This document shows positions 21,399-49,324 of a stretch of 50,416 nucleotides of DNA, in pieces. The first letter of the stretch is position 1; each line of letters starts with the position of its first letter. Made by a program: the position numbers and the translations under genes. The notes under the pieces were generated by a model. It worked only from the letters and a program-made list of their open reading frames with translations, searched no databases and had not been told where the DNA came from. The stretch lies in IMG/VR virus record IMGVR_UViG_3300027708_000101, positions 1-50,416 of that record. One strand, given 5' to 3'. This stretch comes from a virus.

Positions 21399-21833
21399 AT
21401 GACAGAAGAACAATTAAACGAGCTTATTGAAAAAAGAAAAAAAGATGTAGCTACTAAGAATGGAGAGGAATATATTCCCCAACATGAAGAAATAGTAGAC
21501 AAATCATCACCAGACTATCTTAAATCAAAGATAGCCAAGCTAGAAGACAAGTTAGCCAAGTACGAAGACAACGGAATGGCTAAACTTTACTACAGCTTGA
21601 ACAGGAAGGCAAACGAAATGGCTGACCTCATGAATGCAATAAGTTTGAAAGACCTTGACATTGACGACCCTAAAAGCAAGACTTTCGATAGGCTTAAAGT
21701 TCTCTGGACTGGGGCATATGAAATTGCAACATCTATAACACAATTAGGGCAAATGGCAGGGGTATTAAAAGTTGATAAAAAGCTAGAAGAGCCAAAACCA
21801 TTTGTTGATTTAATAGCCCAAGAAAGAAAGTAA
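21399..21833 (+). CDS. Possible small terminase subunit
   Basis: This is a 144-aa helical protein with a central coiled coil (DYLKSKIAKLEDKLAKYED) and acidic N-terminus. It is separated from the large terminase only by the HNH endonuclease gene. In phages the gene just upstream of terL usually encodes TerS, and the helical oligomerisation segment would fit. No clear DNA-binding HTH is seen, so this remains a positional inference. The start at 21399 follows a TTCCCAAAC site (21388-21396). Confidence 0.4.
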   Translation: MTEEQLNELIEKRKKDVATKNGEEYIPQHEEIVDKSSPDYLKSKIAKLEDKLAKYEDNGMAKLYYSLNRKANEMADLMNAISLKDLDIDDPKSKTFDRLKVLWTGAYEIATSITQLGQMAGVLKVDKKLEEPKPFVDLIAQERK

Positions 21834-21834
21834 T

Positions 21835-24548: not shown

Positions 24549-24563
24549 AAAACCCAAAAGAAA

Positions 24564-26918: not shown

Positions 26919-26929
26919 AATAGTATAAG

Positions 26930-26966
26930 AAAAAATTTTTTTATTTAAAATGAACTAATATTTTTA
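26930..26966 (+). promoter_or_regulatory. Candidate late promoter before scaffold/capsid genes
   Basis: An A6T7 tract (26930-26942) is followed after 16 nt by TATTTTTA (26959-26966), a TAnnTTTG-like -7 element with one mismatch. The scaffold-like gene starts at 26986. The arrangement copies that at 2659-2692, which supports both. Confidence 0.4.
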
Positions 26967-26985
26967 CTTCACCAAATTCAAATCA

Positions 26986-28218: not shown

Positions 28219-28256
28219 AAACAAACAAAATTATAAAAAAATAAAACTTAATTAAA

Positions 28257-29675: not shown

Positions 29676-29691
29676 TTATATAATAATAATC

Positions 29692-29717
29692 AAGTAGGGG
29701 AAGAAATTCCCCTACTT
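29692..29717 (+). terminator. Terminator after the major capsid gene
   Basis: A perfect 11-bp stem, AAGTAGGGGAA / TTCCCCTACTT, closes a GAAA tetraloop, 17 nt after the capsid stop. T-rich sequence (ACTTTTCTTT) follows. Both stem arms contain the iterated motif in the form GTAGGGGAA / TTCCCCTAC. The hairpin probably limits read-through or protects the capsid mRNA 3' end. Confidence 0.85.
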
Positions 29718-29748
29718 ACTTTTCTTTAAATAATAAAAAATAAATAAA

Positions 29749-29991
29749 ATGGCAAATTCAGTTAGTGTAGCCGTTATAGGCAAAAATGGTAACGCATATG
29801 GTTCAAGTAAAACTACAGGGTTTCCAACACAAGGTATTTTGATTGAGGCTTATGCCCCTACAGCAACCTTGCCTGATGGAACACCGAACCCACTTGCATC
29901 TGCTTTGACTCAAGTAACATTGTTGTCAACTAGTGATAGATATTATACTGCAACAGCTACGGCTACAGTAATTACAGCAGCAAATGCTTAA
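29749..29991 (+). CDS. Small post-capsid protein, possible head decoration
   Basis: This 80-aa protein is Ala/Thr-rich and beta-like (TLPDGTPNPLASALTQVTLL, YYTATATATVITAANA), bounded on both sides by strong terminators (29692 and 30006). An isolated, well-terminated small gene next to the capsid gene suggests a separately abundant transcript, as for a decoration or cement protein. No family is recognised. Confidence 0.55.
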   Translation: MANSVSVAVIGKNGNAYGSSKTTGFPTQGILIEAYAPTATLPDGTPNPLASALTQVTLLSTSDRYYTATATATVITAANA

Positions 29992-30005
29992 GTTTTAATT
30001 TTTTC

Positions 30006-30032
30006 AGTTGGGGGAGCAGTGCTTCCCCAACT
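30006..30032 (+). terminator. Terminator after the 80-aa gene
   Basis: A 12-bp stem, AGTTGGGGGAGC / GCTTCCCCAACT, with an AGT loop and one G-T wobble, lies 14 nt after the stop. The right arm contains the motif TTCCCCAAC (30023-30031). The following sequence is only moderately T-rich. Confidence 0.75.
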
Positions 30033-30068
30033 ATTTAACCAATTCAACCAATTTAAAATCAAATAAAA

Positions 30069-30980
30069 ATGTCTTTAGAAAATTTCGCACACTTCAATGA
30101 CCTCTCTCCCAAATTGAGAGAAGAGTTAGAACAAAAGGTAGAATCATTTGGTAAAAGAGTTAGGTATAAGTTTGACATAGCTAAACCTAATCCTGACCCA
30201 GAAAAATACAATGGAGAATTTGTATACCCTAATATGTATACACTTGACCCAACTAAGTTTACTATTCAAGACCCATACGAAAATAGAGAGGGCAAAAGTA
30301 AAACAAAAAATATTGGTCTTGTAGACGATGGATTTATGAGTGATACTGGTGTTCCAGAAAGATTTAAAAAAATAAAAGTAGGCGGTTCTGATAGGTCTGT
30401 GTTGACATTAAACATAGAAGACAATAGAGATGACTTTTATATGGCTATGCTTTTAGAATTGCATCCTAAAAATAAGGGGAGTAGATTTGTAAGTAAAACA
30501 TTACATCCTATTATATCAAGAATAGACGAAAATGCAGCAGCTAAAGATGCTAGAACAGAAAGAAGCGAAAGATTAAAAGCTCTTAATGTAGCACAAGGAA
30601 TGTCTGACTCTGAATTAATAGACTTTGCTGATGCAATGCAATGGGACAGCTCAGAAGATATAGAAATTCTTAGAAATAAAGCAGAAGAGTTAGCAGATAG
30701 TAACCCTGTATACTTCAATGATTTTGTTCAAGGTAAAACAGTTGAATATCAATCATTGGTAAAACAAGCAATGAACAAAGGTCTAATCTCTTTTAACCAT
30801 TTAGATTATAGTTTTACATGGACGGGGAATCAGCAGGTAATAACAAACCTTCCCCCAACAGGACAAAAAACAGAAATTCAGAAAATGTCTGAGTGGATGC
30901 AAACAAGTGGTAACAAAGGAGATGATTTTTATAAAAAATTAAAGTCATTAGTAAAAGGCGGCAAGAAGGTCGCTGAATAA
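30069..30980 (+). CDS. Hypothetical virion-region protein
   Basis: This is a 303-aa hydrophilic protein with an N-terminal helical segment (KLREELEQKVESFGKRVRY), a Pro-rich part with PNPDPEKYNGEF and YPNMYTLDPT, and a helical, acidic C-terminal half (MSDSELIDFADAMQWDSSED). It has no catalytic motif or signal peptide. It is placed between the decoration-type gene and the fibre genes. The middle resembles small structural or regulatory proteins, but I cannot name a family. Confidence 0.5.
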   Translation: MSLENFAHFNDLSPKLREELEQKVESFGKRVRYKFDIAKPNPDPEKYNGEFVYPNMYTLDPTKFTIQDPYENREGKSKTKNIGLVDDGFMSDTGVPERFKKIKVGGSDRSVLTLNIEDNRDDFYMAMLLELHPKNKGSRFVSKTLHPIISRIDENAAAKDARTERSERLKALNVAQGMSDSELIDFADAMQWDSSEDIEILRNKAEELADSNPVYFNDFVQGKTVEYQSLVKQAMNKGLISFNHLDYSFTWTGNQQVITNLPPTGQKTEIQKMSEWMQTSGNKGDDFYKKLKSLVKGGKKVAE

Positions 30981-31002
30981 GTTTTGATTTTGAATTGGTG
31001 AT

Positions 31003-31051
31003 TAGCCGAAAGGCTATGACGGCTAAGTTGGGTACATTAGTACTACTGCCC
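31003..31051 (+). ncRNA. Structured intergenic element with competing hairpins
   Basis: The 106-nt gap after the 303-aa gene holds TAGCC-GAAA-GGCTA (31003-31016, GNRA tetraloop) followed by a second GGCTAA (31021-31026) that can pair instead with TTAGCC. Next comes GTAC-ATTA-GTAC (31032-31043) enclosed by GGG (31030-31032) and CCC (31049-31051), then a T/A-rich run. It is more GC-rich than its surroundings. It may be an unusual terminator, an mRNA-stabilising leader for the 88-aa gene, or a small RNA. Confidence 0.4.
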
Positions 31052-31086
31052 TTATTTTATTAAGTAATAATTAAAAAAAAAGAAAA

Positions 31087-31353
31087 ATGGCTGTTACAAC
31101 AATTACAAAGACGACAAATTTGATTAAGATAAAAACTGGTTCAAATTTAGAAAAATGCTATTCCCTAACAAATGGATACAAATTTGCTCCTAAACATAGT
31201 GTGTTAGATACAACACTAGAAACAGATGCAATTATTTTTACTATTGGAGGGGAATCGTTTGATATGGTTTGTACAAGTGGTATAACTGTAGGTTCTACAA
31301 ATTATACTACCTTAGCAACGGCATATCCAGCCTTAATTACTTATCTTACTTAA
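31087..31353 (+). CDS. Small structural-region protein
   Basis: This 88-aa beta-rich protein (TTNLIKIKTGSNLEKCYSL, then FTIGGESFDMVCTSG) has no membrane segment or catalytic motif. It opens a tight run of small genes before the fibres, preceded by the structured intergenic element. It may be a minor capsid or tail component; this is only contextual. Confidence 0.5.
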   Translation: MAVTTITKTTNLIKIKTGSNLEKCYSLTNGYKFAPKHSVLDTTLETDAIIFTIGGESFDMVCTSGITVGSTNYTTLATAYPALITYLT

Positions 31354-31363
31354 AATATAAAAG

Positions 31364-31909
31364 ATGCCTTTTACACCAGGTTTCAGCACTTCCCAAACAA
31401 TTGGGTTACCAAACAAAATAAACTTCACAGACACTTCTACAGGGTCTGATATAAATATTGTTAGCCGCAGAATCTTTATACGAGATGCGGCTAACACTTA
31501 TATAGTTCAGAAGGGTACTACTACTAATTATGAAGACTGGATAATCGTTTCCCCTCCACTAGACCCATTATCAATATCATTAGATGTGTTAAAGAAAGAT
31601 ATGGCGTTATATCTTACAGTGCAATGGTTAAATGTTTCCAATACGGTATTATATGAAAAGTCTTATCTAACAGGGTTTACTTTGTACAATGAGTCTTTTG
31701 ATTATCAAATGACGCAGGTATTGTCTGGGAATCCATTGCTTATAAACGACCACAACTTTTTTGCAAACAAGAGTCAATTGAGAGTGAGCATAGATAGTGG
31801 TAATCAAGCAATATTTTTGGCAGCAGATATATTTGGAGGTCAGCAGTGTTACGATAGGGCAACTAATCTTAGATTAAATTCACCATACTTCTTTAACGCT
31901 AATGTATAG
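31364..31909 (+). CDS. Hypothetical tail-region protein
   Basis: This is a 181-aa beta-rich protein. The opening TPGFSTSQTIGLPNKINFTD and the DWIIVSPPLDPLSISLDVL segment resemble an Ig-like or fibre-attachment domain. It overlaps the next gene by 8 nt. The position before the fibre genes suggests a tail appendage base component, but no family is recognised. Confidence 0.5.
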   Translation: MPFTPGFSTSQTIGLPNKINFTDTSTGSDINIVSRRIFIRDAANTYIVQKGTTTNYEDWIIVSPPLDPLSISLDVLKKDMALYLTVQWLNVSNTVLYEKSYLTGFTLYNESFDYQMTQVLSGNPLLINDHNFFANKSQLRVSIDSGNQAIFLAADIFGGQQCYDRATNLRLNSPYFFNANV

Positions 31910-32411
31910 TATACTTGATAAAATAAAGATTGCAAAAGTAAGCCAGTTCTTGGCTGAAAATGATATTGACAAGAGAGGTCTTTATGGTGGGGGAGTTGAC
32001 ATAATGCTTCCCACAAAAATATACAACATTAGAAAGAGCGTAGAATGGATGTATGGCATCAATCCCCCAACAAACGAAGTAAGAGCAAAGGGATACATAA
32101 CTATTGACAATAGAGGCTTTTTAGATACTGGGATAATAATAACAGTTTATATTGACGACCCAGACTTGGGCTTTATTATTTTAGGAGCTTATACTGTTTT
32201 AATTACAGACACGACAACAGATTTGGTCGCCACAGGTCTTGCCAATTCCCTAACATTAAATCCATATGGCTACTATATAACCAGAATAAACAATACCATT
32301 ACAATAGAAGCAAGGGCAGGAGTGGGTGCATCAATAAATGACAATAATAGAATACAAGTTATTATAACTACAAGAATATTTGATAATACATTTGATAATA
32401 CATTCAATTAA
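31902..32411 (+). CDS. Hypothetical tail-region protein
   Basis: This is a 169-aa protein. An N-terminal helix (SILDKIKIAKVSQFLAENDI) is followed by a beta region (TIDNRGFLDTGIIITVYIDD) and a repeat-like end (IFDNTFDNTFN). It is coupled to its upstream neighbour by an 8-nt overlap and lies 5 nt before the fibre gene. It probably belongs to the same appendage assembly; function unproven. Confidence 0.5.
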   Translation: MYSILDKIKIAKVSQFLAENDIDKRGLYGGGVDIMLPTKIYNIRKSVEWMYGINPPTNEVRAKGYITIDNRGFLDTGIIITVYIDDPDLGFIILGAYTVLITDTTTDLVATGLANSLTLNPYGYYITRINNTITIEARAGVGASINDNNRIQVIITTRIFDNTFDNTFN

Positions 32412-32416
32412 ATAAA

Positions 32417-33673
32417 ATGGCACAAAAGACAGACTTAGACTTAATTACAGAAGCAAACATCATAAGGGACGAAACTGCTATAGGTGCAAATACAGCACTT
32501 AGGGTAGGTACAATGTTTGACAATACAATTGATAGCAAAATAAACAATGATAGAGTAAGCAATGATACTCAGTTAGGAAATGCTACAACAATAGTTCCCA
32601 CGCAATACGCAGTAAAAACTTATGTAGACACATTTGCTACAGGCTTATTAACGGATAATGGCAACTATGACCCAACTGTTACAAGTCAGTATCCAACATC
32701 TGGAAATACATTATCTGGAGGTGCTGTTAAAAAGGGCGACATTTGGTATATTAGTGCAGACGGTACAATAAATGGCAACTCTGTACTTATAGGATATAGT
32801 GTTCGTGCCTTGGTAGACAACGCAGGGGCTACTACAGATGCAAACTGGTCAATATCAAATGTAGGCATAGGCTTTGTGCCAGAGAATGTAGCTAATAAGT
32901 CAACTGACGTTAACTTAGGAACAAGTGATGTTTACTACCCATCACAAAATGCAGTGAAGAGCTATGTTGATACACAAGTAGCAGCAGTACTTCCCTATAC
33001 ACCCGAAAATGTAGCAAATAAAAGTCAAGACATTACCGCTAACCCATCAAGCACAGTATTATATCCATCTAATAAAGCAGTAGCAGATTATGTTAACTTA
33101 GGTATTAATTTACAAACTGCAACCGACAACGGCAACATAACTACAAACGATATTCATGTTTATAATGTAATAGACTCAAGCAATGCAACCGATTCGGCTG
33201 CTGCTTATCTTAATAATGTTGTGGGAGATGGTGGTGTTGTGGGAATAAAAAAAGCAGACGGAACAACTGGCGAAATAAAGGGTACAAATCTTACAGCAAA
33301 TAGAAACTACGAATTCCCAGACAGAAGCGGAACATTAGCATTAACAAGTGATATAGTGCCACCATATAAAGTATTTGTAGGTATACTGACTGCATCTGGA
33401 ACAACCTTATATATTACTGAATTAGAAAACACAATAGGAACGATAGGATATTCTTCATATGGTACAGGAGGCGATTTCGTATTAACTACAAGTGGTTTAT
33501 TTACAGCAGATAAAACAATAGTATTGTCTGGGAATTCAAATTCTGATAATGCTACTATATTTAAAGCATACTGGGGTAGCATATATGGCGTGTATATCAA
33601 AAATTGGGTTAGTGGCGTACTTTCAAGTACGGGTATTTTAAATGTCCCTATTGAAATAAGAGTTTACCCATAA
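32417..33673 (+). CDS. Tail fibre-like protein
   Basis: This is a 418-aa protein. The N-terminus (ITEANIIRDETAIGANTALR, then VGTMFDNTIDSKIN) is a typical attachment region of Bacteroidota phage fibres. Three spaced copies of a T-x-x-Y-P-S-(N/Q)-x-A-V-x-(S/T/D)-Y-V-(D/N) motif (residues about 57-72, 172-184 and 212-226) form fibre-shaft repeats. The C-terminus carries a short beta domain. It is part of the receptor-binding apparatus with the two giant proteins downstream. Confidence 0.7.
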   Translation: MAQKTDLDLITEANIIRDETAIGANTALRVGTMFDNTIDSKINNDRVSNDTQLGNATTIVPTQYAVKTYVDTFATGLLTDNGNYDPTVTSQYPTSGNTLSGGAVKKGDIWYISADGTINGNSVLIGYSVRALVDNAGATTDANWSISNVGIGFVPENVANKSTDVNLGTSDVYYPSQNAVKSYVDTQVAAVLPYTPENVANKSQDITANPSSTVLYPSNKAVADYVNLGINLQTATDNGNITTNDIHVYNVIDSSNATDSAAAYLNNVVGDGGVVGIKKADGTTGEIKGTNLTANRNYEFPDRSGTLALTSDIVPPYKVFVGILTASGTTLYITELENTIGTIGYSSYGTGGDFVLTTSGLFTADKTIVLSGNSNSDNATIFKAYWGSIYGVYIKNWVSGVLSSTGILNVPIEIRVYP

Positions 33674-33683
33674 TATATAAATA

Positions 33684-34106
33684 ATGCAGACAACAACAAT
33701 ACAATTTCAAGGAGGTGTAAATGCTTCAGATGGCGAACCAAGTTTGGTAGATACATCAAACTATCTATATGCATTGTGTGCGCCATATAACCTAAAGGCA
33801 GCGTATATAATAAATACAAACCTACCAACAGTTGTTGTTACTCCTTCGGGTGTTTCGGGAATTATTACCCCTATAAGAATAACAGAAGCCGATTTTATTG
33901 ATGCTACGCATTGGGCAGGAGCAAATAGTGTTAACCAAGCAATACTTCCCAACTACAGACTACAAGTATTTGCTAACTTTGTAGCTAGGTATTTATTGCA
34001 GGGAACTGAGTGGGTAAGAACGGCAGCAGGTATACAGATAATAATGCCAGGGTTTGATGCCACAGTTAATCAGTATGAGTTTTATATTGACATAAGTCTA
34101 TACTAA
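33684..34106 (+). CDS. Small fibre-associated protein
   Basis: This is a 140-aa beta-rich protein (TIQFQGGVNASDGEPSLVDT, FVARYLLQGTEWVRTAAGIQ). It lacks signal peptide and catalytic motifs. It sits between a fibre and the 1782-aa adhesin-like protein with 4-nt spacing, and may be a fibre joint, chaperone or tip protein. No family is recognised. Confidence 0.5.
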   Translation: MQTTTIQFQGGVNASDGEPSLVDTSNYLYALCAPYNLKAAYIINTNLPTVVVTPSGVSGIITPIRITEADFIDATHWAGANSVNQAILPNYRLQVFANFVARYLLQGTEWVRTAAGIQIIMPGFDATVNQYEFYIDISLY

Positions 34107-34110
34107 TAAT

Positions 34111-37100
34111 ATGAAAAAAATAATAGTTTTATTTGCTTTGCTATTGGGAAGTATTATCTCAATAGCACAGCCAGTTACACAGAGAGGTACGTCAGCAGTT
34201 ACCGTTCAAGACTCAAGATTATTTGCTGAACTAAACTTCAGACCACCAGCATTTCCCGACACAGTAAGAGCAAACCAACAGATAGGATTAGATAGCTGTG
34301 GAGCATTAATATTTTCTAGGGACATTAACGCTTACTACTACAGAGCGTGTAGCCCAAAGAGATGGGTAAGGGTTGCATCTGGGGGAAGCACATCTGATAG
34401 CGCATACTTATCCTACAGACCACTAACAGATAGTACATTTTTACTTTGTCGTGTTGGGGGAACTAGGTGTGATACTATAAAGGTAAATGGTAAGGGAGTG
34501 ACACAGGCATGGCTATTAGGGGGTAATCTAAATCCCGTATCTAATAACTTAGGTACAACAAGTACGACAGACGTAGTTATAATAACTAATGATGTGGCAA
34601 GGATGAAGATAGCAGGGAATGGCATTAATAGAAGTTCAGCAGCAAGGAATAGATACTTGATGATAGACACCCTTACAAGATATTTATTCTATGGGGACGA
34701 GTCAGATACAACTGCTTGGAAATTGTTGGGGAATTCAAACGCTATTGCAGGAACTAGTTTTTTAGGTACAACAAATAATGTACCTCTTGAATTTAGAATA
34801 AAAAATAAAAAATCTGGTATTATAGATAGCACCAATAAGAATGTAGGGTTAGGCTTCAATACATTGAAAACAAATGCTCCAAATGGGGTTATATTGCCGC
34901 CACCAAATAATGCTACATTAGGAACATATAACGTAGCAATAGGTCATAATGCTTTAAGTAAAGATACGCTGGGCTATCAAAACGTAGCAATTGGTGGTGG
35001 GGCATTGGGTACGACAACAACATACTCGCAAAGAAACGTAGCCATAGGATATGCGGCATTAAACCAATCAATAACACCAAGTTTAGATGTTGCAATTGGA
35101 TGGGGTGCTTTAGCAAGAGATTATTATGGTCAAGCTAATACAGCAGTAGGAGCAGATGTGGCTAATTTTTATGCACCTGCTTCTGGCGATACCATGGCAT
35201 TTAATACATTGGTAGGGTACAGTTCAGCAAAACAAAAAAAAGCTGGGAAGTACAATGTGTTTGTTGGGGATAGTACTGGGGCGTTAAATATAAACGGCAG
35301 TAGCAATGTTTTTATAGGAAGCAGAGCTGGTCAAAATGAAACTGGTTCAAGTAAATTGTATATATCAAATTCAAGCACTTCTAATCCTTTAATTAAAGGG
35401 AACTTTGCTGATTCTACTTTGAATGTGAACGGGAAGATGTCAATATCACTCACTTCCCAGACACCAGATTCAAGTCTAGACGTAACAGGTGGTGTTAAAC
35501 TAAGGACAATATATAGAAGTGGTGCTTTAACTGATAGTATGCTTTTGGTAGGAGCAGATGGGGGTGTTGTTAAGAGGGAAGTGATAGTGCCAAGCAATAC
35601 AAATGTTACAAGGATTATATCTGGTAGCGCAGTATGGGACTCATTGTTGGTATATAGCGTTACGAAATGCTTTTATTATATCAATGGCATACTATACAAT
35701 TCCCCAGCAACAAATATAACACTAGCAGCAGCAGATTCATCTAACCCAAGGATTGATGTTATTTATTGTGATACCTTGGGAAATGTTGGAGTAATAACAG
35801 GGATTCCCTCACCCAATCCTGTAAAGCCAACAGTTAATCCTCTATCCCAAATAGAATTAACCCACATCAATATAAATGCTCAAGCAACAACACCAGTAGG
35901 CGTAAGCAATAGAATAATATACAATGAAAATGTTGGTGTGCCTAATGAGTGGAATACATCAAAAAGTTTACCCTTATCGCCAGCCGATTTTGCGTATACT
36001 ATAAATCCATATGTAGGAACTAAGTCAGCATACGCTCCACCGTTTGAAGGGAATTACTCTTTGATATTTACAAATAATGCCTTTGTTAATGCAGATACGC
36101 TAAGTGAACTATCAATGTATTTAAGACAAAATTCTGCACCTCCTGCAAAAGTAGGAACAAATATGTTTAGTGTAATATTATACAAGTCTGGGGTAAAGGT
36201 AACTAATCAAGTCTTTGTATCAGATGGGTTTTATGGCTATAGTCTTTTGACATTGAATTCTTATCAACATATAGCTATACCATTTTCAAGTTTTGTATAT
36301 TCAAACCCTTTAGATAAAACATTTGACCAAATACAAATACTATTAGATTTTTCAACTATTCCTAAATTAGGCTTTCAATTTGATTATATAACTGCTGGTG
36401 CTGGGGGAACTCCTCCTGCGGTTATAAGCAACTATTGGTCATTGACTGGGAACGACAACACTAGCTTCCCTAACGCAAAGTTAGGAACAACAAGCAAGGA
36501 CAAGTTAAGCATAGTTACAAGCGATGTAGAAAGAATAAACATCGCCAACACAGGTGTTATATCACTTCCCCAACTTCAAACAACAACAGACACATTACTA
36601 TACAAGCCATTAGTTATTAATCCTAGCAATGGTCAAGTAGCAGGTATAACAAATTGGGGCAACAACACAGTCTACACAGAGAACCCAATAATGTCAAGGA
36701 CATCTGGTGACTCTAATATCATCTACTTCAATGCTGATACTGCTAATGCTTGGCGTGGGGGAGGTGGAACTACTCCAAATCTTCAACAAGTAACTGATGT
36801 AGGCGATACTACTACAAATAATATCTTTTTGAATAAAATGTATATGTATGATGGTACAAATGATATATATTCATTAAATGCACGAGTTGAAGATGAGAAT
36901 TTTTATATAACAAGTGGTGCTTCTGGAGCAGATTATTTTAGAGTTACTGATGGAGAAATGGCAATATATAAAGCACCATCAAGCGTAGGGGTAATAAGAG
37001 CCTATAATCTTACAGGAGGTAGAGCTTATGACCTTCCTGATGCTTCAGGTACATTATTATTAGACGCTCCTTCTGATGGTAATTTGTATGGTAGAAAAGA

Positions 37101-39459: not shown

Positions 39460-39461
39460 TT

Positions 39462-39641
39462 ATGAAACACATCAGACAAATAAATAGCGTAGGCACTAAC
39501 ACCTACACAATAGTAATAACAGAAGGTTGGGACAAGCCACTAGAAGAGCATCCATCTGTGGTTGAAAAGCCAGATATTTTTGAAGTGTCAGATACTGAGC
39601 CTCCATCTTATGTACAATATGTCAATTATATTCAAGAATGA
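39462..39641 (+). CDS. 59-aa protein between two giant fibre genes
   Basis: An ATG at 39462 gives 59 codons: MKHIRQINSVGTNTYTIVIT, then an acidic Pro-rich tail (HPSVVEKPDIFEVSDTEPPS). The stop overlaps the next start as ATGA (39638-39641), so translation is coupled. The small size and location suggest a fibre connector or assembly chaperone. No family is recognised. Confidence 0.65.
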   Translation: MKHIRQINSVGTNTYTIVITEGWDKPLEEHPSVVEKPDIFEVSDTEPPSYVQYVNYIQE

Positions 39642-42835: not shown

Positions 42836-42875
42836 TGGCATAAATATTGAATAACATATACCAAACCCTAAGAAA

Positions 42876-43070
42876 ATGGAAAACCAAAACAATCATCCCG
42901 TAGGAGCAGCAGTTAGTTCAACAATAAGTATGCTAACGGCATTGTTTGCTATATTAACTATGGAGAATGTACAAATGTATTTAACTATGTCAGCGTCCTT
43001 TATTGCTATTGTATCTGGTGCATTTGCTATTAGATACTACTATTATGCAACAAAGAAAATAAAAAAGTAA
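42876..43070 (+). CDS. Small two-helix membrane protein, holin-like
   Basis: This is a 64-aa protein with two hydrophobic helices, about residues 9-29 (VGAAVSSTISMLTALFAILT) and 33-57 (MYLTMSASFIAIVSGAFAIR), then a basic end (ATKKIKK). Size and topology fit class II holins. It is followed at once by a second holin-like gene, so one may be a holin and the other an antiholin or pinholin. Confidence 0.55.
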   Translation: MENQNNHPVGAAVSSTISMLTALFAILTMENVQMYLTMSASFIAIVSGAFAIRYYYYATKKIKK

Positions 43071-43090
43071 AAATGATATTTGTTTTTTTG

Positions 43091-43098
43091 TATCTTTA
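43091..43098 (+). promoter_or_regulatory. Weak candidate promoter before the holin-like gene
   Basis: TATCTTTA matches the Bacteroidota -7 element with one mismatch and lies 25 nt before the ATG at 43124, after a T-run. No TTTG is found at the right distance upstream, so the call is weak. Confidence 0.25.
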
Positions 43099-43123
43099 GC
43101 ATAGAAAACAAAAACCATAATAT

Positions 43124-43378
43124 ATGAACTCATCATTGTTTACATTGAACTCAAAGGATTGGGCTAAGGGGTTGGTAGTTGCAATTTTAACTGCAATTAT
43201 TACCGTGGTTTATAACACCATCCAAACGGGGGCATTAGTATTAGATTGGAAGGCTATTTCTATTGCAGGTATTTCTGCGGCATTAGCTTACATCACAAAG
43301 AATTTATTGACTAACTCTAATGACCAACTCTTAACAAAAGAGCCAGTTAAAGAAGAGATAGTAAAGGAAGAAGTTTAA
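43124..43378 (+). CDS. Holin-like membrane protein
   Basis: This is an 84-aa protein. Residues about 10-31 (DWAKGLVVAILTAIITVVYN) form one helix, residues about 43-62 (AISIAGISAALAYITKNLL) a second, and the tail is charged (KEPVKEEIVKEEV). This pattern, including the highly charged C-terminus, is typical of phage holins of Bacteroidota. A strong terminator follows (43393-43416). With the lysozyme at 45560 it would time host lysis. Confidence 0.65.
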   Translation: MNSSLFTLNSKDWAKGLVVAILTAIITVVYNTIQTGALVLDWKAISIAGISAALAYITKNLLTNSNDQLLTKEPVKEEIVKEEV

Positions 43379-43392
43379 TTAGATTTTATTTG

Positions 43393-43416
43393 TGTGGGGG
43401 AAGAGATTCCCCCACA
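43393..43416 (+). terminator. Terminator after the holin-like gene
   Basis: A perfect 10-bp stem, TGTGGGGGAA / TTCCCCCACA, with a GAGA loop lies 15 nt after the stop. A T-rich run (TCGTTTTATA) follows. A frame of the next gene extends back into the hairpin to 43394, but that start is rejected in favour of 43442. Confidence 0.8.
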
Positions 43417-43441
43417 TCGTTTTATACCAATTCAAAACATA

Positions 43442-43672
43442 ATGGACACCAACTCAAAGATTAAGTACGCATTGCTATTAACATTATTTCTTACAGGATG
43501 CTATAGTTCTAAAGTAGCAAACCTATACATTGATAACTTACAATTTAAAAATCCACGACTCTTACAAAGAAAAATGCAGACATACTATCCGTGTGGCTAT
43601 ATTACAATCAAAATGAATAAAGCAGATAGTTTACTTGCAGATAGTTTGTTTAGGGTTGGCAAACCCAATTAG
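43442..43672 (+). CDS. Small lipoprotein in lysis region
   Basis: The ATG at 43442 gives 76 aa starting MDTNSKIKYALLLTLFLTGC, a lipoprotein signal with lipobox LTGC (Cys20). The mature part is short and basic. Earlier in-frame ATGs lie in the terminator hairpin and give an unlikely N-terminus. A small lipoprotein beside holins suggests an outer-membrane spanin subunit (o-spanin), though a unimolecular spanin candidate is also present at 44905. Confidence 0.65.
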   Translation: MDTNSKIKYALLLTLFLTGCYSSKVANLYIDNLQFKNPRLLQRKMQTYYPCGYITIKMNKADSLLADSLFRVGKPN

Positions 43673-43674
43673 CT

Positions 43675-44430
43675 ATGGCTAAGTCCACCACTAACAATTT
43701 TACCACAAAAAGACGTAGACTCTTTTTTGATATTGAAGTGTCACCTAACATAGGGTTGTTCTGGGAGGCTGGGTGGAAGAAAAGCATAGGCTATGAAAAC
43801 ATTATAAAGGAGAGAGCAATAATTTGTATTTGTTATAAATGGGAAGAGCAGAAAGAAGTATACCACTTGCAGTGGGATGCGAAGCAGTCAGACAAGAAAA
43901 TGTTAGAGGCATTTGTGAAGGTAGCAAACGAGGCTCATGAATTAGTAGGTCACAATGGGGATAAATTTGACTTGTCTTGGATAAGGACAAGATGTTTGTT
44001 TCATGGGATTGATATGTTCCCCAACTACATTACAATAGACACATTAAAGATAAGCAGGTCTAAGTTTAAATTCAACTCCAACAAATTAGATTACATAGGT
44101 AAGTTTCTGGGTATAGGGAAAAAGATAAAGACAGACTTCAACTTATGGAAAGATATCTTGTTAAACAAGGACAAGTTAGCAATGGCTAAGATGATTAAGT
44201 ATTGCCAAATGGATGTAATATTGCTTGAAAAAGTTTACAAAAAGTTATCAAATCATATAGCAGCTAAGACGCATTTTGGAGTTATCTTTGGGCAGGATAG
44301 AGGCACTTGCCCAGAATGTGGCTCTGATGATATAATTATAGGGAATAGGAGAACAACTGCTGGTGGCACTAAAAAAATACAATATATTTGTAAAACTTGC
44401 CATAAGTACCATACAAAAACAGACAAGTAG
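43675..44430 (+). CDS. DEDD-type 3'-5' exonuclease with zinc ribbon
   Basis: This is a 251-aa protein. It has the RNase H-like exonuclease motifs: FFDIEVSP (D19, E21), HNGDKFDLSW (D96 or D99) and YCQMDVILLEKVY (Y176, D180), followed by a C-terminal zinc ribbon (C212, C215, C239, C242). The family degrades DNA or RNA 3' ends in replication or repair. It starts 2 nt after the lipoprotein gene; the next gene starts 1 nt after its stop. An exonuclease inside a lysis cassette is odd and suggests recombination or DNA-turnover duties late in infection. Confidence 0.8.
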   Translation: MAKSTTNNFTTKRRRLFFDIEVSPNIGLFWEAGWKKSIGYENIIKERAIICICYKWEEQKEVYHLQWDAKQSDKKMLEAFVKVANEAHELVGHNGDKFDLSWIRTRCLFHGIDMFPNYITIDTLKISRSKFKFNSNKLDYIGKFLGIGKKIKTDFNLWKDILLNKDKLAMAKMIKYCQMDVILLEKVYKKLSNHIAAKTHFGVIFGQDRGTCPECGSDDIIIGNRRTTAGGTKKIQYICKTCHKYHTKTDK

Positions 44431-44431
44431 C

Positions 44432-44629
44432 ATGACACCAAGACAAGAAATAGGGTTGATTTTGAACAGATTACACCCATCAGATGCGATTGCTTTGATA
44501 GAGAGCATAGGCAAGGAACTTAGGAAGAAAAATTCAATCAGAATTAATAGAGGTATTGAGCCGAAATCATTACTTTTGGATGACCGACCAGACTTGGAAA
44601 TCCTAAAAGTAAAGCCCTATGGAAAATGA
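44432..44629 (+). CDS. Small hypothetical protein
   Basis: A longer frame begins at 44363 inside the exonuclease gene. The ATG at 44432, 1 nt after its stop, gives 65 aa beginning MTPRQEIGLILNRLHPSDAI. The sequence is helical and basic (GKELRKKNSIRINRG). It overlaps the next gene by 11 nt. No function is recognised. Confidence 0.6.
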   Translation: MTPRQEIGLILNRLHPSDAIALIESIGKELRKKNSIRINRGIEPKSLLLDDRPDLEILKVKPYGK

Positions 44630-44918
44630 AATCATAACAAAAGTACCGCCAGAAATTCCCGAACAAGAGGAAGAATTAGCTGAAGAAATTATATACGAAG
44701 AAGAGATGTCTTGGAGCGAAGTAATACATTGTGTCTTTGCCGCAGTTTCGTCAATAGAAGATATAGATATGGCAATGGCATCCCCAATGGATAGAAAGAG
44801 AATCAAGAGAATAAAAAGAAAAGCATTGAGATTGATTGATGTGGGTATAGGCGAGATATATGCAGAGAAATTTGAAACAGAAACCGAAGAAAAACAAGAT
44901 GATAATGAAGAAGATTAA
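44619..44918 (+). CDS. Acidic small hypothetical protein
   Basis: This is a 99-aa protein with acidic ends (PEQEEELAEEIIYEEE and ETETEEKQDDNEED) and a basic middle (MDRKRIKRIKRKALRL). The end overlaps the spanin-like gene by 14 nt. It contains a TTCCCGAAC site (44656). No domain is recognised. Confidence 0.55.
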   Translation: MENEIITKVPPEIPEQEEELAEEIIYEEEMSWSEVIHCVFAAVSSIEDIDMAMASPMDRKRIKRIKRKALRLIDVGIGEIYAEKFETETEEKQDDNEED

Positions 44919-45408
44919 TTACTTATGTTTGGCGTTAGTATTGTGTTTGGGAAGTTGTAGCAAGTACAACGACCAAGAGGCATTGAAACAATTGCTAAAG
45001 GCAGAATCACTGAAGCCTAAGGTTACTGCTGACTTTGTTGGGGAACACTTCCCATGCAAACCAAAGACAGATACACTAGTGCAGACACAGACAGACTACA
45101 AGTACATAGACGTTGTTTGCCCTCCAGCAGATAGCACTGCCGATACTATTTACTTGGACAAAATAAAAGTGGTAACAAAAACTAGCGTGGTTAAACGAAC
45201 AATAGCATTGCCGTCCAAGACTATTACCATTACAAAGTACTTTGAGGATTCGGCTAAAATTAAATCATTGTCGCTTGCCAATTCCCAAACACAAGAAGAG
45301 TTGAAAAAATGTGCAGAGAAAAAAGACAAATCGTCAAGCCTAAACTTATGGCTCATTATTTGTTTGTGTTGTTCTATCATCCTTAACTTAATCCAACTTC
45401 GTAAATGA
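44905..45408 (+). CDS. Probable unimolecular spanin (u-spanin)
   Basis: The frame opens at 44860, but the ATG at 44905 (or 44899) gives a lipoprotein signal MKKINYLCLALVLCLGSC with lipobox LGSC. The 167-aa protein then has a periplasmic beta/helical part and ends with a C-terminal transmembrane helix (SLNLWLIICLCCSIILNLIQ) and a basic tip. An outer-membrane lipid anchor plus an inner-membrane helix in one protein is the defining layout of u-spanins such as T1 gp11, which fuse the two membranes at lysis. Its stop overlaps the next start (ATGA). Confidence 0.65.
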   Translation: MKKINYLCLALVLCLGSCSKYNDQEALKQLLKAESLKPKVTADFVGEHFPCKPKTDTLVQTQTDYKYIDVVCPPADSTADTIYLDKIKVVTKTSVVKRTIALPSKTITITKYFEDSAKIKSLSLANSQTQEELKKCAEKKDKSSSLNLWLIICLCCSIILNLIQLRK

Positions 45409-45563
45409 AGTACATAAAAAAAATATTCCACTATTTACATGGCAGACCTATGAACAGGTATGAAGAGGATTACTATGAAATAATCTTAGGTGAACTGCTT
45501 TCTATTTTAATCGTTTCAGCAATCGTTGTATGTGCCGTATATTTATTAATGGGTATCAAATGA
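45405..45563 (+). CDS. 52-aa single-span membrane protein in lysis cassette
   Basis: The ATG at 45405 overlaps the spanin stop, and its stop overlaps the lysozyme start (ATGA at 45560-45563), so three genes are translationally coupled. The protein opens MKYIKKIFHYLHGRPMNRYE, then an acidic part, then one hydrophobic helix (LLSILIVSAIVVCAVYLLMG) and K. It may be a holin, antiholin or spanin partner. Confidence 0.65.
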   Translation: MKYIKKIFHYLHGRPMNRYEEDYYEIILGELLSILIVSAIVVCAVYLLMGIK

Positions 45564-46036
45564 ATCCGAGTAATAGCTTTTACAATATCATCACTCTTTT
45601 AGAAGGCTTGAGAACAAAAGCCTACCAAGATACCAAAGGCATTTGGACTATCGGCATTGGCACAATTACCTATCCTAATGGGGACAAGGTAAAGAAGGGG
45701 GATGTCTGCACCGAAGAGAAGGCTTATGAATATCTAAAGCACCATACAGAAAAGATGGTAGGAACTATCAATGGGCTACTGAATGGCGTTAGTTTAAATC
45801 AGAATCAATTTGATGCCATCTGTTCCCTAACATACAACATAGGTACTGGAGGCTTCGCTTCATCCAATGTGCTTAAATTAGTGCGTCAAAATCCTTCTGA
45901 TGCGAATATAAAAGAAGAGTGGCTAGGATGGTGTAAGGAAACAATAAATGGTAAGAAGGAAGTTAATAAGGGATTACTAAGCAGAAGAAAAAAGGAGTAC
46001 CAATTATATAGCACTCCTTTGGTTAATCACGGATAA
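45560..46036 (+). CDS. GH24 (T4-type) lysozyme, endolysin
   Basis: An upstream in-frame ATG at 45530 lies within the previous gene; the coupled ATG at 45560 gives 158 aa. The catalytic triad is E15, D24 and T30 in LLEGLRTKAYQDTKGIWTIG, with the same spacing as T4 lysozyme (E11, D20, T26). The later QFDAICSLTYNIGTGGFASS motif is typical of GH24. No signal peptide is present, so release needs the holin. It cuts peptidoglycan at the end of infection. Length is normal. Confidence 0.9.
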   Translation: MNPSNSFYNIITLLEGLRTKAYQDTKGIWTIGIGTITYPNGDKVKKGDVCTEEKAYEYLKHHTEKMVGTINGLLNGVSLNQNQFDAICSLTYNIGTGGFASSNVLKLVRQNPSDANIKEEWLGWCKETINGKKEVNKGLLSRRKKEYQLYSTPLVNHG

Positions 46037-46038
46037 TA

Positions 46039-46215
46039 CTAGTCGTTTAATGATTTTATATAGTCTTGAAATGCCTTTTGGCAATTAGCATTCTCCCCCT
46101 CCTTCAGACTTATAATCCACTCACAAGCAGATAGCCATGCGTCTTCCCTAGCATCATATAACTTTTCAGCCAACAACGTCTCAATTTCATTAGTGTCAAT
46201 TTGTTTCTTTGCCAT
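46039..46215 (-). CDS. 58-aa acidic hypothetical protein
   Basis: Minus-strand ATG at 46215 gives 58 codons: MAKKQIDTNEIETLLAEKLY, then DAREDAWLSACEWII and a short tail ending KSLND. It overlaps the end of the next upstream gene by 20 nt and converges on the lysozyme stop with only 2 nt between, with no separate terminator. It is the distal gene of the minus-strand early operon. No function is recognised. Confidence 0.6.
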   Translation of the reverse strand: MAKKQIDTNEIETLLAEKLYDAREDAWLSACEWIISLKEGENANCQKAFQDYIKSLND

Positions 46216-46390
46216 CTTCGTTTAGTTTTGTTTGTAAGTGATTGATTAGTATTTCTTGAGCCTTCTCTATGCCACCTATCTTGTCTATCTTATAGCGTTC
46301 TAAGTAGATTTGGATGCCTATCTTTCTTAGGCTTTCTTTCACTGGCTTTCTGCCCCTTTTTTCTGTAGTTTCTTTTTTCTTATAACTCAT
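46196..46390 (-). CDS. Small basic protein, possible DNA-binding
   Basis: This is a 64-aa basic protein: KKKETTEKRGRKPVKESLRK, then GIQIYLERYKIDKIGGIEKA, then helical. The RGRKP AT-hook-like motif followed by strand-helix-helix order suggests a ribbon-helix-helix-type DNA-binding protein. It overlaps its neighbours by 20 and 11 nt. This is a weak functional inference. Confidence 0.5.
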   Translation of the reverse strand: MSYKKKETTEKRGRKPVKESLRKIGIQIYLERYKIDKIGGIEKAQEILINHLQTKLNEDGKETN

Positions 46391-46694
46391 GGATGTCTGT
46401 TTTAGTTTCTTGTTCTAGTTTGTGTCGCTCTGCCCACTTCTCACCTCTTAGTGATGGCTCTTTCTCTTGTAGTTTTCTTCTTACCCTTGTGATGTTATCG
46501 GGTAGGGGAAATCGCTTCTCAGCAAAGTCCTTCAAGAATTGAAATGCACTGATGTTTTCAAATGCTTCCCTCCCACCATATTTTATATAGTAGAAAGCAG
46601 AAACCAATCTGTTATCATCATCTCTGTATTCGGGATACTTTACTAGCAGTTCCCTTACATCGTTCTTAATTTTACGCATTTGTTTTACTATCAT
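46380..46694 (-). CDS. Phage early protein of unknown function
   Basis: This is a 104-aa protein. KNDVRELLVKYPEYRDDDNR, then LVSAFYY, then FPLPDNITRVRRKLQEKEPS with a final LRGEKWAER motif resembles a widespread family of small hypothetical phage proteins, as I recall. A second ATG at 46679 is possible. The leader AAACTAATACC fits the operon pattern. Its function is unknown. Confidence 0.6.
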   Translation of the reverse strand: MIVKQMRKIKNDVRELLVKYPEYRDDDNRLVSAFYYIKYGGREAFENISAFQFLKDFAEKRFPLPDNITRVRRKLQEKEPSLRGEKWAERHKLEQETKTDIHEL

Positions 46695-46720
46695 GGTATT
46701 AGTTTAAAAGGTTAAAAATT

Positions 46721-46744
46721 CCCCAACCTAAGAATAGGTCGGGG
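46721..46744 (-). terminator. Terminator within the minus-strand early operon
   Basis: A 10-bp stem CCCCAACCTA / TAGGTCGGGG (one A-C mismatch on this strand, G-U on the transcribed minus RNA) with an AGAA loop lies 28 nt after the stop of the 103-aa gene. On the minus strand it is followed by AATTTTT. One arm contains TTCCCCAAC (46719-46727). It would separate the gene pair 46380-46694/46196-46390 from upstream ones. Confidence 0.7.
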
Positions 46745-46772
46745 CATCATTAAAAAAAACAGAAACACTATA

Positions 46773-47084
46773 TTAGTTAGACGAGTGATTATAGTCATCT
46801 ATAATGTCGGGGATGTCAAACACTTCTACCTCTATAATTTCCAAGGCAGGTTGTTGCCTTCTATCAACGATTAAATGATACTCATTAATCTGCGTAATGG
46901 TGTACGCCTCATGACTGCCTCTTAGTATCTCAGCTTTGGCATAGGCGATTAACTCAGCCATTGTTATCTTTTCCCCTACAGGCATACCATTACTTTTAGC
47001 TGCAATTTCTACTAGATAATCGCATACCAATGCAGTTGCTGGGAATCTTGTAATTTTGAATGATGTTTCAATTTTTTGTTCCAT
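46773..47084 (-). CDS. Hypothetical early protein
   Basis: This is a 103-aa protein with KITRFPATALVCDYLVEIAA, a helical middle (MAELIAYAKAEILRGSHEAY) and an acidic C-terminus (EVEVFDIPDIIDDYN). The leader AAACAAAAACTAAAAACA precedes ATG at 47084 and overlaps the end of the 50-aa gene. A terminator follows. No family is recognised. Confidence 0.55.
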   Translation of the reverse strand: MEQKIETSFKITRFPATALVCDYLVEIAAKSNGMPVGEKITMAELIAYAKAEILRGSHEAYTITQINEYHLIVDRRQQPALEIIEVEVFDIPDIIDDYNHSSN

Positions 47085-47220
47085 TGTTTTTAGTTTTTGT
47101 TTTTGTTTTATAAAATTGTTTTTTGATTACTTTCGGTATCAGTACCCCATCAATAACGTCATACATTTCTCCATTAGGTTTACAACTGAACATTGGAGTT
47201 ACTTTCTTTTTGGCTTTCAT
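47068..47220 (-). CDS. 50-aa basic protein
   Basis: Minus-strand ATG at 47220 gives 50 codons: MKAKKKVTPMFSCKPNGEMY, DVIDGVLIPKVIKK, then a Lys/Thr/Asn tail. Its 3' end overlaps the start of the 103-aa gene by 17 nt, so the CTAAAAACA leader of that gene is also coding here. A beta core with basic ends is seen. Function is unknown. Confidence 0.5.
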   Translation of the reverse strand: MKAKKKVTPMFSCKPNGEMYDVIDGVLIPKVIKKQFYKTKTKTKNNGTKN

Positions 47221-47329
47221 TTTCTTTTATATATTTAAAAAATACGTAAGTGTAATAAAATAATACAGATAATAGTGTTGTAGTTACTGATGCTATCAAT
47301 ATTGCTAGTGTGGTTAATATGTTATTCAT
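47180..47329 (-). CDS. 49-aa single-span membrane protein
   Basis: Minus-strand ATG at 47329 gives 49 codons. Residues 4-30 (ILTTLAILIASVTTTLLSVL and on) form one strong hydrophobic helix, followed by FKYIKENESQKESNSNVQL. It overlaps both neighbouring genes (8 nt upstream, 41 nt downstream). A small early membrane protein may act in superinfection exclusion or host take-over, but nothing proves this. Confidence 0.55.
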   Translation of the reverse strand: MNNILTTLAILIASVTTTLLSVLFYYTYVFFKYIKENESQKESNSNVQL

Positions 47330-47516
47330 TATTATTTGTTTTGAAGTTGACAAATAATTGTTTTGTTTGGGAATATCCGTCCCATAATGACATTATTCTT
47401 TGTGCATTATCAATTCCCTCACGTGATTGATATAAACGTGATACGTTAAATTGTTCGCACCATTCATTAAATGTTGGTCTGCTTGTTGGGGTTGTTGTTT
47501 TGACTTGTAGTTGCAT
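47322..47516 (-). CDS. Small early hypothetical protein
   Basis: This is a 64-aa protein: VKTTTPTSRPTFNEWCEQFN, then SRLYQSREGIDNAQRIMSLW. The leader before ATG at 47516 has CTAAACTAAAAACA with two CTAAA units. No domain is recognised. Confidence 0.55.
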   Translation of the reverse strand: MQLQVKTTTPTSRPTFNEWCEQFNVSRLYQSREGIDNAQRIMSLWDGYSQTKQLFVNFKTNNNE

Positions 47517-47543
47517 TGTTTTTAGTTTAGTGTAGTTTAGTGA

Positions 47544-47807
47544 TTAATATACTTGTAGCATTGATTCTATTTCATTAATTTGTTTGGGAGTTAGTGATGA
47601 GATTAGATTACTTCTTTGGTTGAATTTTACTGCTTCCCCAGCAATAATCAGTTCTACATAGGTTATATCAACATTAGTATATGATGTATCATGTATGCCA
47701 TGACATTCTTCTGTTGACTTTACTTCTTCAAATATATAGGTTACTTCTAACTGTATATTCCCGAACGATTCTAAGATTACATTTTCTGTTTTAGTTTGCT
47801 TTGCCAT
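47544..47807 (-). CDS. Small early hypothetical protein
   Basis: This is an 87-aa protein rich in beta strands (ILESFGNIQLEVTYIFEEV, NVDITYVELIIAGEAVKF) ending in a helix (SLTPKQINEIESMLQVY). The leader AAACTAAACTAAAC precedes the start and contains the stop of the upstream HTH-like gene. No family is recognised. Confidence 0.55.
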   Translation of the reverse strand: MAKQTKTENVILESFGNIQLEVTYIFEEVKSTEECHGIHDTSYTNVDITYVELIIAGEAVKFNQRSNLISSLTPKQINEIESMLQVY

Positions 47808-47814
47808 GTTTAGT

Positions 47815-48018
47815 TTAGTTTGTTTCGGAATTAGCGTTCTCTGTTATCTTAATGAAGTGTACTCCGTCTATCTGTATTAAGTCCCAATTATCATTTCTTC
47901 CCTGACTTAATAGCTTATAAATATACCCTACATTTACTCCTGTGCCGTTCCTCTTACTTGGGTATTGGTCTGCAAAGTTTTTGACGGTAATCAGTTTTTC
48001 ATTTTTTTTCAATTTCAT
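47815..48018 (-). CDS. Small excisionase/MerR-like DNA-binding protein
   Basis: The frame extends to 48036, but that ATG lies within the promoter; the ATG at 48018 gives a 67-aa protein beginning MKLKKNEKLITVKNFADQYP. The order VKNFADQYPS...GVNVGYIYKLLSQG, then DLIQIDGVHFIK, is that of excisionase-type winged helix proteins: a helix-turn-helix then a short wing. It lies directly under a strong promoter with an operator-like palindrome, so it may regulate itself. Inference from pattern. Confidence 0.5.
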   Translation of the reverse strand: MKLKKNEKLITVKNFADQYPSKRNGTGVNVGYIYKLLSQGRNDNWDLIQIDGVHFIKITENANSETN

Positions 48019-48033
48019 TTTATTTAATTTTAA

Positions 48034-48064
48034 CAAATGTAAATACTTTTACCTTATTGGCAAA
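48034..48064 (-). promoter_or_regulatory. Bacteroidota-type promoter with palindrome, minus strand
   Basis: On the minus strand TTTG (plus 48061-48064) is followed after 19 nt by TACATTTG (plus 48034-48041), a full match to TAnnTTTG. Between them lies GTAAA-TACT-TTTAC (plus 48039-48052), an inverted repeat whose 15-bp context is repeated at 50192-50206 with one difference. Confidence 0.75.
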
Positions 48065-48077
48065 AAATATTTCTAAA

Positions 48078-48524
48078 TTATATTTTTCCTTCATCATTGT
48101 AGCTATAATATCCATCACTTGTTACTATTAAATGGTCTAATAATTTTATATCAAGCATTTCCCCTGCATTCTTTATTTTTTGTGTAATTGCATTGTCCTC
48201 ATTTGAAGCAGATAGATTTCCAGAAGGATGATTATGGGCTAAGATTATATTGGTAGTTCCTGCACAATTTAATGCAATGGTAAATATTACCTTTGGGTCA
48301 ACGACTGTTCCTGTAATTCCCCCTACACTAACTTTATAATATCCCATAACCTTATTAGCCCTTGATAAGCATATTAAAATAACTTCCTCAGTCCAATCTA
48401 TTGTGTCTTGGTTGAAGAGTAACTTTAATATGGTATATATATCGTTACTGCTGGATATTGTTTTTAAGTCTGCTTTCTTAGTTCCCTTGTACTTTATTGA
48501 TATCTCTATTTGTGGTAGTTTCAT
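48078..48524 (-). CDS. RadC-like JAB/MPN domain protein
   Basis: This is a 148-aa protein. It has the JAB metal-binding signature ILAHNHPSGNLSASNEDNAI (H-x-H, then Pro-Ser-Gly and Asp) and LLDHLIVTSDGYYSYNDEG near the C-terminus, the RadC-type pattern. It lacks the N-terminal HhH region of full RadC. Such short RadC-like proteins are common on mobile elements and phages of Bacteroidota; the molecular role is unsettled. A promoter follows it for the downstream genes. Note also GGTAA-ATA-TTACC inside it at 48279-48291. Confidence 0.85.
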   Translation of the reverse strand: MKLPQIEISIKYKGTKKADLKTISSSNDIYTILKLLFNQDTIDWTEEVILICLSRANKVMGYYKVSVGGITGTVVDPKVIFTIALNCAGTTNIILAHNHPSGNLSASNEDNAITQKIKNAGEMLDIKLLDHLIVTSDGYYSYNDEGKI

Positions 48525-48537
48525 TTTTAATTTTTTA

Positions 48538-48705
48538 TTAGTTTAGTAAATTAAATTCATCTATAAATATTGCTTCGTCATTTAGTTTAGTTACTCCCTT
48601 TTCTTCCAATTCCCTGACAGCAGGATAAAATTGATTAACCTTTATACTTGAACTAATAATATAGTCCATTGCTTGTTCTAAGTTTTTAAATACTTGCATT
48701 TTCAT
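48538..48705 (-). CDS. 55-aa hypothetical protein
   Basis: Minus-strand ATG at 48705 gives 55 codons: MKMQVFKNLEQAMDYIISSS, then IKVNQFYPAVRELEEKGVTK and an acidic tail. The leader has three CTAAA units (AAACTAAAACTAAACTAAA). The stop lies in the leader of the RadC-like gene. It looks like a small helical protein; function unknown. Confidence 0.55.
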   Translation of the reverse strand: MKMQVFKNLEQAMDYIISSSIKVNQFYPAVRELEEKGVTKLNDEAIFIDEFNLLN

Positions 48706-48733
48706 TTTAGTTTAGTTTTAGTTTGTTTGGGAA

Positions 48734-48934
48734 TTAATGTTTACAGGATTCTATGAGGTTAAGGTAATCATCATAGTAGTCATTAAATATGTCTTGAGCC
48801 TCTTCGGTATATGTTGTTATACCTTCTTCCTCATCTATATATATTTGAATACTATCTTGCCATTCTCTTTCTAGTTTCATATTGGCTAATTCTGAGGCTA
48901 ATTCTAGCTTGTTGATTGTGATTAGTTCTTGCAT
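48734..48934 (-). CDS. Small acidic early protein
   Basis: This is a 66-aa, acidic, helical protein (LELASELANMKLEREWQDSI, then EEEGITTYTEEAQDIFNDYY). Acidic mini-proteins of early operons often inhibit host enzymes or mimic DNA, but this is only a thought. No family is recognised. Confidence 0.5.
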   Translation of the reverse strand: MQELITINKLELASELANMKLEREWQDSIQIYIDEEEGITTYTEEAQDIFNDYYDDYLNLIESCKH

Positions 48935-48985
48935 TGTTTTATGATTTTAGTTAATGATTAATTTATTAGTGTTTTATTATTTCCT

Positions 48986-49255
48986 TTACATATCATCTTT
49001 ACCGTCTTGACATATCATTTCCATTTTATCATTATATAATTCTGTTACTGCATTCCAGCTATTATCTTCTAAACACATATCTGTAATGGTATCATCAAGC
49101 CATTCTTGACCAATGAAGGTATCATCTGTATTTTCTCCTACTACTATACTTTCCATAGTTTCCTTTGCATTTTCATAACTTTCTGCTTGTACTTCATGTG
49201 TTTCTCTTATCCACATGGTAACTTTTCTGTCAATAAAAAATGTGTGCGTGTTCAT
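48986..49255 (-). CDS. Small acidic early protein, DpnD/PcfM-like pattern
   Basis: This is an 89-aa protein. MNTHTFFIDRKVTMWIRETH, then EVQAESYENAKETMESIV, is a strand-helix pattern resembling the DpnD/PcfM group of short proteins, followed by an acidic, Trp-containing half. The resemblance is loose. The leader AAACTAAACAATT precedes the start. Confidence 0.5.
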   Translation of the reverse strand: MNTHTFFIDRKVTMWIRETHEVQAESYENAKETMESIVVGENTDDTFIGQEWLDDTITDMCLEDNSWNAVTELYNDKMEMICQDGKDDM

Positions 49256-49293
49256 AATTGTTTAGTTTTATTTTGTTTTTAATAGTGTTTTAA

Positions 49294-49324
49294 GTAGGGG
49301 AAATTGTGTTAAAATTTCCCCTAC
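49294..49324 (-). terminator. Terminator after the frameshifted gene
   Basis: A perfect 12-bp stem, GTAGGGGAAATT / AATTTCCCCTAC, with a 7-nt loop lies 7 nt after the stop at 49331. Both arms carry the iterated motif (GTAGGGGAA and TTCCCCTAC), as in the terminator at 29692. Confidence 0.8.

Follow-up and report, generated by a model that had tools for sequence, protein, structure and literature searches.

This phage genome, one of a group of uncultured phages, carries a short asymmetric word, GTNNGGGAA, that is enriched on both strands, is conserved site by site among relatives that bear it, drifts into dialects sharing a GGGAA core, and supplies the stems of intergenic hairpins that follow the local dialect. 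Our preferred explanation, on which we are about evenly divided between belief and doubt, is that GTNNGGGAA would be the dispersed recognition site of a lineage-specific phage protein and that inverted pairs of the word have been reused as terminators. By "the window" we mean the whole stretch of DNA analyzed, 50,416 bases in length.

Enrichment of the word in the window

We counted 102 GTNNGGGAA sites in the window (42 plus-strand, 60 minus-strand), compared with five for the reversed pattern, which served as a control, and 5.1 expected from a Markov model; the excess over the reversed control is ~20-fold. In 100 synonymous-codon shuffles, with every protein and the codon usage preserved, the count was 22.4 +/- 2.7 with a maximum of 29, and this control is conservative because intergenic DNA was left unshuffled. 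The first-pass annotation had described the motif as a 9-mer; it is indeed iterated, and the 9-mer proved too narrow, being part of the broader GTNNGGGAA. Sites within coding DNA lie in both orientations (38 sense, 48 antisense) and occupy all six codon phases, and we saw no orientation signal among the sites of the window. High density, the use of both strands, and the inclusion of coding DNA are traits shared with uptake sequences. Regular spacing was rejected, the intervals being Poisson-like with a CV of ~1.

We read the word as selected; it is dispersed with no bias toward a strand, a codon phase, or a location, and its signal acts at the DNA level and is not a by-product of the protein level. 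An origin of the motif in nothing more than codon usage, repeats in proteins, or the composition of stems is scarcely credible; an AT-rich, coding, and strongly codon-periodic genome speaks for it, but all six phases are used, the synonymous shuffles fall short of the observed count, site conservation exceeds background (see below), and single scattered sites exist outside the hairpins.

Using 301 non-hairpin, nonredundant sites and codon-phase-matched expectations, we found flanking preferences reaching from -7 to +16, and the extended consensus covers ~24 bp (TnnKnnTGTtnGGGAAgTnnTnnY). Refinement of a position weight matrix by EM collapsed onto codon periodicity, and its result was not used. 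The length of this consensus bears on a replication reading, in which the motif would be what a phage primase recognizes on its template, present on both strands at roughly Okazaki spacing. The distribution is orientation-free with about one site per kb per strand, and one related record holds a BT4734-like_N/PriCT_1 primase gene, as this reading would predict, but a 7-base core whose flanks extend the site to ~24 bp would be a long target for such an enzyme, the BT4734-like type is seen in only some records, and the window has no recognized primase. We consider this initiation role quite improbable.

Features of the window discussed in the text
Feature	Position	Strand	Description
Span of 102 GTNNGGGAA sites	137..49324	.	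Mean spacing 487 bp, Poisson-like
Small XRE/Cro-type HTH protein, clade-specific	885..1148	+	Weak candidate for motif reader
Convergent motif pair inside a coding gene	2157..2184	.	GTAGGGGAA / GTTGGGGAA, NN noncomplementary
Phage-encoded ferritin	20872..21372	+	Pfam Ferritin, E 6e-22
Major capsid protein-like gene	28257..29675	+	Gene order, downstream of terminase and portal
Terminator-like hairpin after capsid gene	29692..29717	+	Both arms GTAGGGGAA, loop GAAA (GNRA), T-rich tail
Second hairpin downstream of capsid gene	30006..30032	+	Arms TTCCCCAAC and GTTGGGGGA (one base off)
Intergenic hairpin	43392..43417	+	Both arms GTGGGGGAA, loop GAGA (GNRA), tail CGTTTTATAC
Terminator-like hairpin between two minus-strand genes	46721..46744	-	One arm GTTGGGGAA, tail AATTTTTAAC
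Intergenic inverted pair of GTAGGGGAA	49294..49324	.	12-bp stem, 7-nt loop

Dialects and conservation among related phages

Portal (phrog_6547), terminase-like, and capsid-like genes stand in order in the window, which also encodes large virion proteins, an endolysin, a DnaQ-like exonuclease, and RadC. We assigned the terminase and capsid genes from matches to terminases of isolates and from gene order, and the capsid-like gene had no PHROG match. An HNH endonuclease gene (21835-22479), inserted upstream of the terminase and found elsewhere only in the near-identical G410 and, at another genome position, in G009, is probably a homing element. An 87-bp unit occurs two and a half times in direct repeat, nearly unchanged, within a 1782-aa ORF (37264-37481). 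Among isolates, the closest are Flavobacterium elemo phages, Cellulophaga phages phi38:1 and phi18:3, and Maribacter phage Panino, with terminase or portal identities of 24-29%, and capsid relatives in genome collections come from metagenome-assembled genomes labeled Bacteroidota, Bacteroidia, and in one case Thaumarchaeota, the last probably misbinned. Because both the nearest isolates and these labels point there, the host is probably a member of Bacteroidota.

We read the records of 21 relatives, a few without their last bases; these are incomplete genomes, and replication and regulation genes are missing from several. Two members of one clade differ in what they carry, a BT4734-like/PriCT_1 primase at L028:17448-19304 in one and a DnaB-type helicase at L033:3434-4846 in the other, an alternation that suggests exchange of the replication module.

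GTNNGGGAA is enriched in every phage of one monophyletic clade in the tree (G000-G005) and in five further fragments with the same XRE gene. Phages with the words GGGAAGT, CAAGGGGAAG, or GRACGGGA form a clade near it in the tree. The dialect word is GGGAAGTNGT in G011 and CAAGGGGAAGT in G415, G012 uses both GRACGGGA and GGGAAG, and G010 has the weaker word TCGGGAA; the dialects share a GGGAA core. Measured against synonymous shuffles, exactly nine related phages have GGGAA as their top enriched 5-mer (z 10.6-18.6); in G010 it comes second, close behind CGGGA, while in seven other relatives its z is 3.1 or less. The distribution of the motif tracks the phage phylogeny and its consensus drifts with lineage. 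In up to 49 kb of each of the isolates phi38:1, phi18:3, Panino, and elemo we found no such motif, their top words being tRNA or codon words, and literature searches for an equivalent phage motif returned nothing matching. An apparent motif in G008 was rejected as a tandem repeat; the locus (L049, G008 66917-67265) consists of ~60 tandem copies of an ACGGAA-like 6-bp unit.

Individual sites are conserved at 0.36-0.87 among motif-bearing phages versus 0.10-0.42 for the background, defined as any seven bases with the same spacing, and against relatives without the motif conservation is at or below background. Scattered sites are two to four times above background between motif-bearing relatives. 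Such a pattern would be expected if single sites are under selection and also turn over.

Hairpins with stems drawn from the word

The first-pass annotation had proposed that five terminators in this region have stems related to the iterated motif, and all five hairpins are present where it placed them. It had counted two with the motif in both arms, which we raise to three (29692, 43392, and 49294), and had rightly assigned a single arm to 30006 and 46721; the hairpin it had set apart as a close variant, at 43393, has arms that both fit the consensus. T runs are modest and differ among them: the one at 46744 on the minus strand is clear, those at 29717 and 43417 are delayed by a few bases, that at 30006 is unclear, and 49294..49324 has no clear T tract on either strand. 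In a consensus terminator scan of 29500-49400 we found 18 terminator-like sites versus 9.2 expected in shuffles, and the four best-scoring entries, at three loci, bear the motif. Neither 30006 nor 49294, the two that lack a clear T tract, is on the scan list. The earlier proposal that terminators are made from the motif thus stands for the five it named, in a selective list: the 18 sites also include terminator-like hairpins without the motif, such as 46020-45991. Because of these, we call the motif the preferred but not the sole stem material of terminators in the window. The hairpin at 45991-46020 (minus) has a strong T tract and lies at the 3' end of the endolysin gene, which is on the opposite strand. 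Rfam and tRNA scans of the window gave no matches.

Co-occurrence of motif and hairpin, which had been proposed from this one stretch, extends beyond chance in the relatives. In the six GTNNGGGAA phages the motif is present in 14/21 intergenic perfect hairpins versus 8.5% of random intergenic 30-mers, and in seven relatives without the iterated motif it is present in 0/9 intergenic hairpins. Nearly every relative, L085/G417 being the one exception, has a hairpin in the corresponding position after the capsid gene, and the stem of this hairpin matches each phage's own word: GTAGGGGAA in the clade of the window, GGGGAAGTGA in G011, AAGGGGAAGTGG in G012, CAAGGGGAAGTAGT in G415, and GGTCGGGGA in G010. 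A second hairpin in G012, GGGACGGGATT / GCTTCCCGTCCC, is built from that phage's own second word. Relatives that keep the hairpin and not the motif, a combination that the first-pass annotation had named as counting against its proposal, do exist, yet they lack the motif genome-wide and their stem is unrelated, which fits a stem that changes along with the motif.

All ten of the 4-nt loops are GNRA when read in one orientation (GAAA, GAGA, GCAA, GTGA, GGAA, and GTAA were seen), although 8/10 of these hairpins are orthologous and hence not independent; the loops vary and yet remain GNRA. At the capsid hairpin, the orientation that reads GNRA is the transcribed-sense strand, and in three stems the mismatched NN positions become G-U pairs on the GNRA-reading strand. 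GNRA loops and G-U pairs on one strand therefore support the view that these are RNA hairpins, that is, predicted terminators at which transcription would end. As in an intrinsic terminator, the stems are stable and G+C-rich, their loops are short, and they lie where transcription units end; inverted pairs forming such stems, as in uptake sequences, are present at the sequence level only.

Candidate readers, host genomes, and known systems

In our preferred explanation, a phage-made, lineage-specific DNA-binding protein would most likely bind sites about every 500 bp, and its binding would mark or organize the phage genome for replication, packaging, condensation, or telling it apart from host DNA. 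Head-to-head intergenic sites would double as the stem of an RNA hairpin, an intrinsic terminator, the tightest of which would be closed by a GNRA tetraloop, and a change of the motif would be followed by new stems made from the local dialect. Termination, the existence of the reader, its phage origin, and its purpose are what we infer from this pattern.

Two genes were considered for the reader. The small XRE protein (AlphaFold pLDDT 85; closest fold HipB, E 0.06) has a C-terminal beta hairpin and is a weak candidate. Its gene is present in nine viral contigs, and the motif is enriched in those whose records were counted; the gene follows the GTNNGGGAA clade only, and among the dialect phages we did not detect it in G011, G012, or G415. 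We found no conserved motif arrangement at its promoter region, G004 having no site there at all. A palindrome-like sequence, CGTATATATACG, lies upstream of the XRE gene in several relatives and may be an operator of the XRE protein. The ferritin gene lies a short distance upstream of the terminase region. Every one of the nine strong-motif records has it, the copies of G011, G012, and G415 being diverged but in the same position, and 0/7 records without the motif do. Ferritin was rejected as reader, since it is also present in an unrelated contig (L140) without the motif. The reader gene may lie in a part of the genome absent from these records.

A repressor, perhaps the XRE protein, could instead bind the motif genome-wide and block elongation, in the manner of the stoperators of Cluster A mycobacteriophages, which are dispersed asymmetric sites, mostly oriented with transcription, whose consensus drifts among related phages (PMC6550527). 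The phage word shares the dispersed asymmetric sites within a phage genome and the lineage-drifting consensus, and the co-occurrence of XRE gene and motif would fit. We nevertheless regard this as very doubtful: the sense and antisense counts show no orientation with transcription, the ~100 sites are more numerous than stoperators and mostly intragenic, terminator stems are made from them, and the XRE gene does not extend to the dialects.

The word could also be host-driven, with the host using GTNNGGGAA as an uptake sequence, a Chi-like sequence, or another DNA mark, the phage having acquired it, and the dialects reflecting different hosts. The isolate relatives infect Flavobacteriia, and density, both strands, a core with weak flanks, dialects, and terminator pairs all resemble bacterial uptake sequences (DUS/USS), which are short asymmetric motifs, dense on both strands and within genes, with dialects among related lineages (PMC2397512, PMC3630211). 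In 395 Bacteroidia genomes, a sample that probably does not include the true host, we found no enrichment above ~3-fold over the reversed control, which is evidence, not proof, against a common Bacteroidia signal. The motif hairpin was present in 1/395 Bacteroidota genomes. It was found in 26 viral stretches, and the motif is enriched only in those of this phage family; sharing of the motif with other phages through the same hairpin was therefore rejected. Together with a motif that follows phage phylogeny, these results make a host origin rather unlikely.

The first-pass annotation had called the parallel with Neisseria and Haemophilus direct. What holds is the arrangement, in which inverted pairs serve as terminator stems as neisserial DUS do (PMC2397512), with stem and motif changing together; status as an uptake sequence is not supported. 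At one per 0.5 kb, the phage sites are about twice as dense as neisserial DUS (~1.15-1.5 kb apart, PMC2397512). Unlike DUS/USS, the word sits in a phage genome, has no enriched host among the genomes sampled, and has no link to competence. The structural parallel is real as a matter of sequence arrangement; nothing supports a role in DNA uptake, and we do not file the word as an uptake sequence. To our knowledge, its GGGAA core also differs from known DUS/USS cores.

We class the word with the dispersed genomic recognition words. Polar sequences of the Chi or KOPS type are likewise short, G-rich, and dispersed; unlike them, the phage word is strand-symmetric and lineage-specific and has no known partner in recombination or DNA translocation. 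Its hairpins resemble intrinsic terminators in their G+C-rich stem, 4-nt GNRA loop, conserved position after the capsid gene, and, in some of them, a T-rich tail, and differ from them in a stem sequence set by a genome-wide motif and in T tracts that are late or unclear (30006, 49294).

Words that are scattered over a whole genome and have dialects are familiar chiefly from bacterial uptake sequences, and the same architecture in a phage lineage would point to a new phage mechanism for labeling the genome or to an undescribed host signal; the dialects are natural variants that could be used to find the reader. We advance more tentatively the possibility that this lineage labels its genome with a fast-changing, orientation-free word, which a phage-encoded protein would read to recognize the phage's DNA as self, whether to package it, replicate it, or spare it, with terminators rebuilt from that word. 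If true, such a self-labeling word would be the phage counterpart of uptake-sequence dialects, without natural transformation.
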